Below, piece after piece: positions 24,501 to 39,790 of a stretch of 64,000 nt of DNA. Made by a program: the position numbers and the translations under genes. The DNA comes from an uncultured Clostridia bacterium (GTDB taxonomy: Bacteria > Bacillota > Clostridia > Christensenellales > Borkfalkiaceae). Numbering within the stretch: the stretch's first letter is position 1; every line of letters starts with the position of its first letter. The stretch is taken from NCBI GenBank assembly GCA_947624005.1, contig CANQHV010000004.1:1-64000 (forward strand). The letters are read 5' to 3'. Below the pieces are notes generated by a model, which did not search any database, was not told where the DNA came from, and saw only the letters and a program-made list of their open reading frames with translations.

Positions 24501-24528
24501 CGCCGCGCGGGGCAAGCCCCGCGCGGCG
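24501..24528 (+). terminator. GC hairpin after the hypothetical membrane protein
   Basis: cgccgcgcggggcaagccccgcgcggcg. Confidence 0.55.
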
Positions 24529-24610
24529 TTTCTCTATTCGTCCTCCGTGTATTGCTTCCGAAAATTTATAACTCGTCCGCGCGGGTCTACCCCCCCCGCG
24601 GCGTTTATTT

Positions 24611-24757
24611 TTAGTCGTCCTCCGTGTATTGCTTGTGGTACTTTGCCACTTCGTCGGTATCGAGCGAAACTTTGCTGTACAGCCCCGTACACTCGTTCGC
24701 CGAAGCACAGCCCTCGAACAGGTCTTCCTTTAATTTTTTGATTTTCTTCTTGCTCAT
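24611..24757 (-). CDS. Small hypothetical protein (48 aa, Cys-containing)
   Basis: MSKKKIKKLKEDLFEGCASANECTGLYSKVSLDTDEVAKYHKQYTEDD; protein-like composition; its 3' end is duplicated downstream. Confidence 0.5.
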   Translation of the reverse strand: MSKKKIKKLKEDLFEGCASANECTGLYSKVSLDTDEVAKYHKQYTEDD

Positions 24758-25270
24758 ACCACTATTTTGCGCGTTTTTGCGCAAAATATTACGCAAAATT
24801 TTGCCCTACCGCACAGAAAAACGCTACCCTCTCCCAACCCCTTCCCCGCCGAGGCTTTCAGCCTCGGCGGGGATAGGAATATAATAACTTATAACCACTA
24901 TATAGTATGTAAAGGTAAAACACGAATACCTACATTTTCACTTTTTTCTTATCGGCGCGCTATGCGCGCCGATAAGAAAAATGAAAGCACAAAAACACTA
25001 TCCTTGCTTTCTCTACCAACCTCCTATATATCCCTGCCGAGGCTTTCAGCCTCGGCGAGGATAAAGGATATATAACTATATAAACACTGCAATACAAAAA
25101 TTCTCGTTCCCTCGCACCAATCTCACCCTTTTTTCTCCCTGAAATTTCCTATTTCTTACTCCCCAAATTCCCACCCTCCGCGCGCCCGCAAGTTGCGGGC
25201 GCGCGGAGGGTGAGTAGAATAAGGCTGTCACTTCGTTCGAAATAACAGCAGAACTCTCGGTGTGCGGCAG

Positions 25271-25519
25271 TTGCCGCGCACCGAGAGTTTTAATAATAAA
25301 ATCGAAAAAATAAATAATTATATACTCATTTCCGCCCCGATACGGGGGCGGAGAGGTATATAAAAATATGTGCGTGCGCCCGCGGTTTTCAACCGCGGGC
25401 GCACGCACTGAACCTTAACCCACTGCCGCTGCACGTAATCGCGCGACAATTGCCGCGCACCGAGAGTTTTAATAATAAAATCGGAAAAATAAATAATTAT
25501 ATACTCATTTCCGCCCCGT
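25271..25519. repeat. About 70-bp direct repeat, period 179 bp
   Basis: ttgccgcgcaccgagagttttaataataaaatcgRaaaaataaataattatatactcatttccgccccg at 25271-25340 and 25450-25519, one visible mismatch. Confidence 0.9.
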
Positions 25520-25871
25520 ATCGGGGCGGAAATGAGTATATAGTAGAGTGTATATGGTGCGGTTATTATTATAAAATAGTGTGCCACGTTTCTATTATAT
25601 ATAAATAACAGAATAATGAGTGCTCGCCCGCAATCTGCGGGCGCGCACACTCAACGGTCACTTACTATCCGCCGCGCGCGTTGCGCGCGGCGGATAGTAA
25701 GATTATTATATTAAAGTTACATACAAAGTGTATTGCGACGTTTATTATATATAAATAAAAAGTATGAGAGCCCGCGAGCGGAAGCTCGCGGGCTCTCATT
25801 CACATTACGTTTATACCGCCGCGCGGGGAAGTTCCCCGCGCGGCGGGCGGTGGAATTTTTGTATTAAACAC

Positions 25872-25900
25872 TTGACAAAACAATAAAAACGTCGTAAAAT
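25872..25900 (+). promoter_or_regulatory. Consensus-like promoter, left end of the convergent cassette
   Basis: TTGACA 25872-25877, 17-nt spacer, TAAAAT 25895-25900. Confidence 0.7.
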
Positions 25901-25945
25901 AAAATCACAAAGAGGAACCCAAAGCGGTTGACCTCGTTATAAGTT

Positions 25946-25987
25946 AAAAATAACCGCTAACGACTGCAACTTCGGGCGGTTATTTTT
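25946..25987. terminator. Bidirectional terminator shared by two convergent transcripts
   Basis: aaaaataaccgc ... gcggttattttt, A/T tracts on both sides. Confidence 0.75.
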
Positions 25988-26096
25988 TTGTGCGCTTAAT
26001 TACTATGTACTCGATACTATCGAGCAGTGTAGCGAACTTTTTGTAAAAATTTAAAAGCTCGACAAGTTTTGCGAGTGTTTCGCGAAGCTCGTCCAT
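25980..26096 (-). CDS. Putative 38-aa small peptide of the convergent cassette
   Basis: MDELRETLAKLVELLNFYKKFATLLDSIEYIVIKRTKK; preceded by gaaggaggtggtgctt (strong SD) and a TTGACA-17-TATAAT promoter; below the ORF-track size cutoff. Confidence 0.65.
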   Translation of the reverse strand: MDELRETLAKLVELLNFYKKFATLLDSIEYIVIKRTKK

Positions 26097-26183
26097 AAGC
26101 ACCACCTCCTTCAAAAGAAAATGTTTCCATTTCCCCCCTCGGGAGGTCAACCGCCTGCAAGGGTTCCTCCTTGCTTACCCTAT

Positions 26184-26212
26184 ATTATAATTATTATGTC
26201 GAATATTGTCAA
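26184..26212 (-). promoter_or_regulatory. Perfect-consensus sigma70 promoter of the small ORF
   Basis: minus strand TTGACA (26212-26207), 17-nt spacer, TATAAT (26189-26184). Confidence 0.8.
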
Positions 26213-26374
26213 GTGAATATAATCGCCGCCGCGCGGGGAAGTTCCCTGTGCGGCGGCGATTAAGATATTTAATAAAATTCAGTAAAATATTAAATACGAA
26301 GTCGGCGGGCGGGATTATAAGGCGAGAATTTATTTTGTACGGGGCGAGGGTACGGGTACAGGTATACGGGGTGG

Positions 26375-27769
26375 TTATAAGGCGGTTAAATCGTAATAGT
26401 CTTTGAGATATTCTTTCGTCGCGGAAACCATTTCCGCGAAAAGGGCGCGGGCGCTGTCGACGGACAGCCGCGAGCAAAGCGGCTGATTGACGAACGAGGC
26501 GAAAATTTCGTCGAGGTCGCGGCGTTTTATTCCGTCGTAACAGGTTAAAATGTTCATACCGTTGCGCAAAACAAGGTTTAAAACCGCGGGAGGGAGTTTA
26601 TTCGCCATAACGGGCTTTACGCTGTCGGCGTCGAAAACGCAGTTGGTTTCGACGACAAGACCCGCGGGCATTCCCGGCATTTGACCGCGGTTGGGAACGT
26701 TGACGTTGGACACGATTTTGCCGCGACCGAGTATTGAAAGCATAAGATTTACGACTTCCTCGTCCGAGCGCACTACCGCGACGGGCTTATTACCCGCCGC
26801 CATCGCCTCGGCGTCGGCGATTTTAGCGGCGCAGTCGGCGCGGCGGTAATCGACGCTTGTAAGGTGAAACAGCCATTTTTCGGCGGTTTCGGGGTCCTTT
26901 AAATACCAATCACCGTTCATAAATTCGACAAGGTGTCTGTCGCCCGCCGCCGCAAGCGCGCCGTAGCGATTAAACAAATCCATTTTTACTTTATTGCCGT
27001 ACAAAAACGGGTTCGACATAAAGTCGTCGGGCGCGTGCCCTATCTGCTCGCCGTAACCTTTATCGTAAAACTTTTCAATAAACGGCGGCAGAAGTTTTAA
27101 AAGGTCCACGCCCTTATAGCTTGCCTCGGTTATCCAAGTGAAGTGGTTTACGCCGCTTGCGTCTATCGTGATTTCGTGCCTGTCGGGGCGGGGTATGCCC
27201 AGCTGTTCGTGCGCGACGCAGGACAAAAATTCCTGCGCGTGGAATACCTCGTGGCAGCAGCCGAACGCCTTGATTTCGGGGAATACGTCGAAAAGGGTCT
27301 GCGTGCACGCCGTCATCGGGTTTGTCAGATTTATGACCCACGCGGCGGGGCAACGTTCGGCTATCGCGCGGGCGAAGCCCTCGTATATGGGCACGGTGCG
27401 CATTGCGCGCAGTACGCCGCCCGGTCCCACCGTGTCGCCGACCGACTGGTATATGCCGTATTTTTCGGGCAGATGCACGTCCGACTGCATTTCGTCGAAA
27501 GTGCCCGGAAGAATCGAGCAGATTACGAAATCCGCGCCGTCGAGCGCGTCGCCCAACCTTTCGGCTACGGTGTAATTCCACTTTGAAACGGTGCGTTTGT
27601 CGGCGTTGATACGCTCGCCGACCCGCCTGTTGCGTTCAGCCGCGGGTTTGTCGATATCGTACAGCGCGATTTCGCCGCACAAATCTTCGGTGAGGGCGAG
27701 GTCGTACTGGAACACCCTGCACCAAAGTTTGGAACCGCCGCCTATATACGCTATTTTTATATTTTTCAT
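26375..27769 (-). CDS. Glycoside hydrolase family 4 protein (alpha-galactosidase/glucosidase-like)
   Basis: KIAYIGGGSKLW NAD motif, VINLTNPMTACTQTLF, GCCHEVFHAQEF. Confidence 0.88.
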   Translation of the reverse strand: MKNIKIAYIGGGSKLWCRVFQYDLALTEDLCGEIALYDIDKPAAERNRRVGERINADKRTVSKWNYTVAERLGDALDGADFVICSILPGTFDEMQSDVHLPEKYGIYQSVGDTVGPGGVLRAMRTVPIYEGFARAIAERCPAAWVINLTNPMTACTQTLFDVFPEIKAFGCCHEVFHAQEFLSCVAHEQLGIPRPDRHEITIDASGVNHFTWITEASYKGVDLLKLLPPFIEKFYDKGYGEQIGHAPDDFMSNPFLYGNKVKMDLFNRYGALAAAGDRHLVEFMNGDWYLKDPETAEKWLFHLTSVDYRRADCAAKIADAEAMAAGNKPVAVVRSDEEVVNLMLSILGRGKIVSNVNVPNRGQMPGMPAGLVVETNCVFDADSVKPVMANKLPPAVLNLVLRNGMNILTCYDGIKRRDLDEIFASFVNQPLCSRLSVDSARALFAEMVSATKEYLKDYYDLTAL

Positions 27770-27860: not shown

Positions 27861-27889
27861 ATTATACACCCGCCGCCCTTTGTTGTCAA
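27861..27889 (-). promoter_or_regulatory. Consensus promoter of the GH4 gene
   Basis: minus strand TTGACA (27889-27884), 17-nt spacer, TATAAT (27866-27861). Confidence 0.75.
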
Positions 27890-27901
27890 GGGCGGCGGGT
27901 G
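27867..27901 (-). terminator. GC-rich hairpin after the capD-like/small-ORF pair, overlapping the GH4 promoter
   Basis: cacccgccgccctt-tgttgtc-aagggcggcgggtg. Confidence 0.6.
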
Positions 27902-27914
27902 TGCGCTATTTCCG

Positions 27915-39635: not shown

Positions 39636-39661
39636 TTTGCACCTCCTTATTTTTATAAACA

Positions 39662-39790
39662 AATTTCCCCGCCGCCGTAAGGCGCGGGGAAACGACGAAA
39701 GGAAATACCTTTTACAATCTTTTCCACCACCTCCGCGGGATATTGAGCTTTGCGCACCCGCCTTCTACGGCACGGAAATTTATTTTACGT
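39662..39790 (-). ncRNA. L10 ribosomal protein leader
   Basis: minus strand ...gtagaaggcgggtgcgcaaagctcaatatcccgcggaggtgg... resembles the L10 leader consensus, directly upstream of rplJ. Confidence 0.75.

Follow-up and report, generated by a model that had tools for sequence, protein, structure and literature searches.

Toxins of type I toxin–antitoxin (TA) modules are usually hydrophobic peptides that insert into the membrane. In the par/Fst system, two RNAs are transcribed from convergent promoters towards a common terminator, which is the site of their first contact, and the Shine–Dalgarno (SD) sequence lies under a 5′ stem-loop (PMC7472228). In Bacillus subtilis, the mRNAs of txpA, bsrE and bsrG hide their ribosome-binding sites (RBS) (PMC6562991), and in Clostridioides difficile the pairs CD2517.1-RCd8, CD2907.1-RCd9 and CD0956.2-RCd10 are clostridial examples of convergent type I TA modules (PMC6563280). 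Hydrophobicity is not universal among type I toxins, SymE and RalR being cytosolic (PMC6562991). Since type I modules have been found mainly via hydrophobic toxins, modules with other peptides would be invisible.

The window, i.e. the whole 64,000-nt stretch of DNA that was analysed, holds a cassette of ~350 bases which resembles these systems in its arrangement. As in par/Fst of pAD1, which belongs to the Fst/Ldr superfamily, promoters are convergent, the predicted RNAs overlap at the terminator and the SD is covered by a predicted 5′ stem-loop. As in TxpA/RatA, BsrG/SR4 and BsrE/SR5 of B. subtilis, the putative antisense RNA is convergent and overlaps at the 3′ end, and the RBS would be hidden in the mRNA. 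The TxpA, BsrG and BsrE toxins are membrane peptides, unlike the window peptide, and Fst/Ldr toxins have a transmembrane helix, a conserved W (V in Fst of pAD1) and a charged C-terminus, whereas in the window peptide neither a transmembrane segment nor a W was found from hydropathy and sequence. The C. difficile pairs are set apart by their description, in which a long complementary region is reported, whereas in the window it comprises only the ~45 nt of the terminator. Moreover, the direct repeats of par-type DNA (DRa/DRb) are absent from the window, where two weak, short and chance-like direct pairs were found. The par repeats are direct, so that the par RNAs are complementary there, whereas the window repeats are inverted, so that both window RNAs carry the same self-pairing element. 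The best Rfam relation to the B. subtilis systems was negligible (BsrG, 9.0 bits against a gathering score of 55), and no credible match of the cassette to Rfam was found at the gathering score or at relaxed thresholds. Assignment of the window peptide to Fst or Hol_Tox was considered and rejected, as it has no family match and no transmembrane segment.

Layout of the cassette

The promoter of the peptide-encoding (sense) transcript, TTGACA-17-TATAAT, lies at 26212-26184 on the minus strand and agrees with the consensus at 12/12 positions; the antisense promoter, TTGACA-17-TAAAAT, lies at 25872-25900 on the plus strand and agrees at 11/12. A preliminary description of this DNA had given both promoters with coordinates and spacing that proved correct to the base, and the common context in which it had placed them is a 10-nt perfect inverted repeat, CACTTGACAA (I8). 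In a 4-kb scan, 11 promoter-like sites were found versus 4.4 ± 2.1 expected, the two of the cassette being among the best three. From the promoter positions, transcription would start near 26177 (minus strand) and near 25907 (plus strand).

Between the promoters, at 25946-25987, is an intrinsic terminator whose stem is perfect (12/12) and which has T-runs on both strands; it is bidirectional, as had been claimed, and common to both predicted RNAs, and it is the region of ~45 nt in which they overlap. On the minus strand, the SD sequence AGGAGG (26105-26110) stands 8 nt 5′ of the ATG of a 38-codon ORF, MDELRETLAKLVELLNFYKKFATLLDSIEYIVIKRTKK (25980-26096), whose TAA stop codon is within the terminator stem. 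A search of the plus transcript for SD-led ORFs found none, so the earlier attribution of such an ORF to the minus transcript alone holds. The predicted plus-strand RNA is made up of a leader hairpin and of the common terminator in the opposite sense; it would span ~85-90 nt (25905-25994) and scores 76.4 bits to R1, a covariance model for the antisense RNA that was built solely from genus sequences including the window family.

The leaders of both transcripts are near-identical, as the preliminary description had noticed, owing to two pairs of inverted arms. One pair, GCGGTTGACCTC, is perfect over 12 nt (25924-25935 and 26143-26154), and the other, CAAAGAGGAACCC and CAAGGAGGAACCC, matches at 92% over 13 nt (25908-25920 and 26161-26173). 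The motif GGAGGAACCC..GCGGTTGACCTCC of the sense leader (26141-26173, minus strand; inverted repeats I3 and I4) is hence a copy of the antisense leader, in which fold prediction and the inverted repeats define a hairpin, GAGGAACCC-AAA-GCGGTTGACCTC (25908-25935, plus strand), with the anti-SD element of the sense leader. Judged from sequence, this arrangement is not due to chance, because the whole of it recurs in relatives.

The surroundings of the cassette are rich in palindromes. Nine perfect GC-rich ones with different cores (arms 12-21 nt, loops 3-4) occupy 24501-25846, ~1.35 kb with no plausible gene, in an array which ends just left of the cassette, and 25 such palindromes were counted in the whole window; an imperfect palindrome lies on the other side of the cassette at 26226-26260. 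A 12/12 sigma70 promoter at 27889-27861 (minus strand), upstream of an ORF at 26375-27769 (minus strand), is located inside a palindrome with 15-bp arms (27866-27902). The window also holds a ribosomal protein L10 leader (RF00557) at 39649-39788 (minus strand; 45.6 bits versus a gathering score of 44).

Folding of the transcripts and likeness of the leaders

In the minimum-energy fold of the minus transcript (z = -6.1 versus shuffles), ACCTCC covers the SD within a predicted hairpin at 26104-26147, where ACCTCC:GGAGGT pairs around an 11-bp inner stem. The preliminary description had both leaders fold by gagg-aacc facing ggtt-ga-cctc, which stands for the plus (antisense) leader but not for the minus transcript, whose fold puts ACCTCC on the SD. 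The predicted probability that the SD is unpaired is 0.19 in the window mRNA. Over 28 cassettes, its mean is 0.23 versus 0.39 with shuffled leaders, the native leader giving the lower value in 25 of the 28; L032 is the sole locus in which the SD is predicted to be open. What recurs in the antisense leader is the cis element by which the SD is hidden, GGUUGACCUC in the case of the window.

The sense leader was compared with the promoter-trimmed antisense leader in 60 cassettes (29 from the genus, 14 from the class and 17 Hol_Tox loci), and the antisense leaders were permuted among loci. Local alignment scored 32.9 for cognate leaders versus 20.0 ± 0.70 for permuted ones (0/10,000 permutations), and the likeness beats permutation within each of the three sub-sets, with relatedness inside a sub-set contributing to the test. 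In these alignments, a change of the leader on one strand is clearly accompanied by a change on the other, locus by locus.

Measures of pairing between the two RNAs gave mixed results. Perfect pairing of the SD with the antisense leader was no longer than with shuffled leaders (5.6 nt versus 5.7 nt), and the duplex energy of the whole leaders had no cognate specificity. Cognate pairs had a modest advantage in the duplex energy of the SD region (-12.7 versus -11.8; 31/5000), with no single locus significant and relatedness possibly contributing, and likewise in the pairing of the antisense terminator loop with the sense leader (69/5000). As read from the sequence, and with G-U pairs counted, the core octamers GGUUGACC and GGUUAGCC are self-complementary, and therefore the sense and antisense leaders could also pair mutually. 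An RNAalifold analysis of the antisense alignment, for which covariation had been looked to as a check, gave 14 pairs with two-sided change in one of them; this covariation supports the stem weakly, because the stem hardly varies.

Distribution of the cassette and of the antisense RNA

The evidence comes from genomes, mostly MAGs. The genome that contains the window (1.22 Mb in 18 contigs, 77% complete) has five cassettes, i.e. that of the window and four more with matching promoters, flanks and terminator, which encode a different ORF of 34 aa (MRTQLILFLLSLLDKGYIASVRVTKDKIFLTIKK and variants); two of these four stand in tandem. Cassette DNA was matched in 18/94 genomes of the same genus and R1 in 27/94, with up to 11 copies per genome. 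In the ~28 cassettes extracted from the genus, promoters, leader and ORF are conserved together, the absence of which had been set beforehand as a refutation; the promoters are near-consensus and convergent (in relatives, where they could be scored), and the terminator is conserved in all. The genus peptides are of two kinds, A (window type) and B (sister type). At L010 (G000 contig C14, 17.4-17.9 kb), two B-type cassettes stand in direct tandem, with near-identical leaders and peptides that differ at few residues.

Beyond the genus, R1 matched 62 of the 196 genomes of a class sample at E ≤ 0.01, often with several matches in one genome. At E ≤ 1e-4, it matched 27/195 other genomes of the class versus 3/199 others in a phylum-wide sample, and thus the antisense RNA is enriched in this class. 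In one single-contig genome (L087; G245 contig C1, 2362-2364 kb), five R1 matches within ~1.6 kb form a tandem array of cassettes for tiny hydrophobic peptides.

A-type peptides elsewhere were found in uncultured Clostridia MAGs only, the majority from isolates that bear the label Lapin, the French for rabbit, and presumably of gut origin. Searches of phages by tblastn (A-type), of plasmids by tblastn (B-type) and of viral contigs (A-type) gave no match, so that the cassette has no demonstrated link to prophages or plasmids. Cassettes are multi-copy, patchy in distribution and located in unrelated gene neighbourhoods, and the flanks of the window cassette match no flank of other A-type loci.

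Peptides encoded by the cassettes

A-type peptides consist of a long helix-like stretch and a conserved tail, IEYIxIKRTKK, and B-type peptides of a leucine-rich stretch followed by xIxSxRVTKDKIxLTIKK, which reads as a helix plus beta-like sequence. The KK at the end of both types stems from the terminator, whose A-run is translated immediately before the embedded TAA. The dN/dS was 0.42 in the window subfamily (pooled pairwise Nei-Gojobori, three sequences only) and 0.15 (A, 35 aa), 0.40, 0.16 (B core), 0.25 and 0.27 in the other sets. By this measure, the peptides are under purifying selection (0.15-0.42), and the SD keeps a fixed place across the peptide sets.

No match of the window peptide was found in Pfam, NCBIfam, PADLOC or the PDB, nor to Hol_Tox (PF16935) up to E = 10, which agrees with the earlier suggestion of a different family. 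It also appears to be amphipathic rather than a classic single-transmembrane toxin, as had been supposed: it is predicted to form a single amphipathic helix, and it departs from the hydrophobic, membrane-inserting kind of toxin with a GRAVY of -0.07 and a 19-residue hydropathy maximum of 0.78, compared with 2.8-3.0 for Hol_Tox. AlphaFold2 run on the single sequence gave one continuous helix over residues 2-37 with a pLDDT of 95, a lone helix being an easy and little-informative prediction.

Opposite the class-wide R1 matches, other small ORFs occupy the corresponding place and end in KK or similarly (MAYIIVYMITLMLLIMTIKK, MEYVYIMIYIITLIVLIITIKK, MENDYIISFMIILLLLVISIKK, MLDVFTLFFMLALALSINIACWIIIYYITKK and others); these peptides are hydrophobic, of 20-31 aa, in the manner typical of type I toxins, and matched no family above its curated cut-off. 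Profile comparison detected no homology between window-type and sister-type peptides or between the sister type and the tiny hydrophobic type, the profiles being very short, so that distant homology is possible.

Hol_Tox loci share the plan of the cassette

Matches to PF16935, the family named 'putative holin-like toxin', were found in 24/196 genomes of the class and none in the genome that contains the window. The clear Hol_Tox loci that were read out have the same plan, with the leader copied on both strands: like the window, these clostridial loci have convergent promoters, a bidirectional terminator with the toxin stop codon in or beside it, a sense leader copied in the antisense leader and an SD facing a CCTC/CCACCTC element. 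The Hol_Tox peptide differs from that of the window in having a transmembrane helix. The closest resemblance was read at L081, where the peptide MSDYEILSLVLAIGMLSIAVVALCTNTKK scores 27.6 bits to Hol_Tox (cut-off 23.3), the sense leader GGCGGTTGACCTC and the antisense leader ACGGTTGACCTC are nearly letter-for-letter GCGGTTGACCTC of the window, and the antisense RNA scores 40.3 bits to R1 (E 5e-6). Elsewhere among the Hol_Tox loci the motif differs (GGTAATCGG...GTGGTTGCCACCTC) but is again present on both strands, and the R1 scores are lower and come in part from the terminator alone. Across the group of 17 Hol_Tox loci, the twin leaders are significant.

Discussion

We consider it likely that the cassette is a chromosomal type I TA-like module, in which an antisense RNA silences a small peptide via the terminator and an anti-SD leader. 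The conserved layout, in which a putative antisense RNA gene overlaps a putative small-peptide gene on the other strand, and the class-wide occurrence of the predicted antisense RNA argue for the type I TA-like or RNA-regulated small-peptide locus of the preliminary description. The window module, whose layout is that of par/Fst, the TxpA-type and the clostridial systems, would work like a type I TA. The mRNA, starting near 26177 and ending in 25946-25987, would encode the 38-aa peptide, and since its leader is predicted to fold over its own SD, it would be born poorly translatable. The plus RNA, starting near 25907, would be an untranslated antisense RNA of ~85 nt. Both RNAs may make initial contact at their complementary terminator stem-loops, as in par; and because the 5′ end of the antisense RNA copies the mRNA leader including the anti-SD (G)ACCUC, it would pair with the leader/SD region of the mRNA. 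Translation would then be locked off, or the duplex exposed to RNase. Unrepressed peptide would harm the cell, and the probable agent is an amphipathic helix that acts at the membrane surface or on a target in the cytosol. We infer transcription, antisense repression and harm by the peptide.

The harm is the point at which a different reading could enter: an antisense-regulated, soluble regulatory peptide of 34-38 aa, which binds a cellular partner such as a membrane enzyme, the ribosome or a transporter and is no toxin. The non-transmembrane, amphipathic character of the window peptide, the helix plus beta-like sequence of the sister type, the conserved IEYIxIKRTKK tail and purifying selection would all suit such a peptide; nevertheless, we regard it as unlikely, since multi-copy, patchy occurrence in unrelated neighbourhoods fits TA modules better than a housekeeping regulator, and the same chassis elsewhere carries hydrophobic peptides and Hol_Tox.

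The twin leader could also be a DNA operator pair bound by a repressor, with the likeness at the RNA level incidental, as the repeats are DNA-level dyads that start a few bases past both predicted transcription starts. A common repressor, however, would fix one sequence, whereas the repeat varies by locus together with its partner, and for the sense copy the predicted pairing with the SD is better than that of shuffled leaders, which makes this reading very improbable. Slighter still is the chance that the cassette is a MITE-like or selfish repeat in which the ORF is incidental. Its copies are multiple, dispersed and once in tandem, GC-rich palindromes flank it in its own genome and no flanking genes are common to other A-type loci, but selection on the peptide is purifying in every set with the SD at a fixed place, the similarity stops at both promoters, and no transposase link was seen.

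The window peptide being neither Fst nor Hol_Tox, one RNA chassis carries several peptide types without detectable mutual homology. No description of the twin leader was found in the literature searched, subscription papers and preprints lying outside it, and an earlier description is possible. Tentatively, and with somewhat more doubt than confidence, we propose an uncatalogued, Clostridia-wide antisense-RNA chassis, consisting of a twin leader and a common terminator, with an interchangeable cargo of peptides among which no homology is detectable and which include non-membrane amphipathic ones. With the RNA model, the chassis is found in about a third of the sampled Clostridia genomes, though it has no Rfam model and its peptides have no Pfam or NCBIfam model. 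The conserved and searchable part here is the RNA, not the peptide, and the RNA model links Hol_Tox loci with unnamed peptides of 20-38 aa. The reason for having the same leader on both transcripts thereby becomes testable, and, if the proposal is true, type I control would be modular and able to govern peptides with non-membrane targets.
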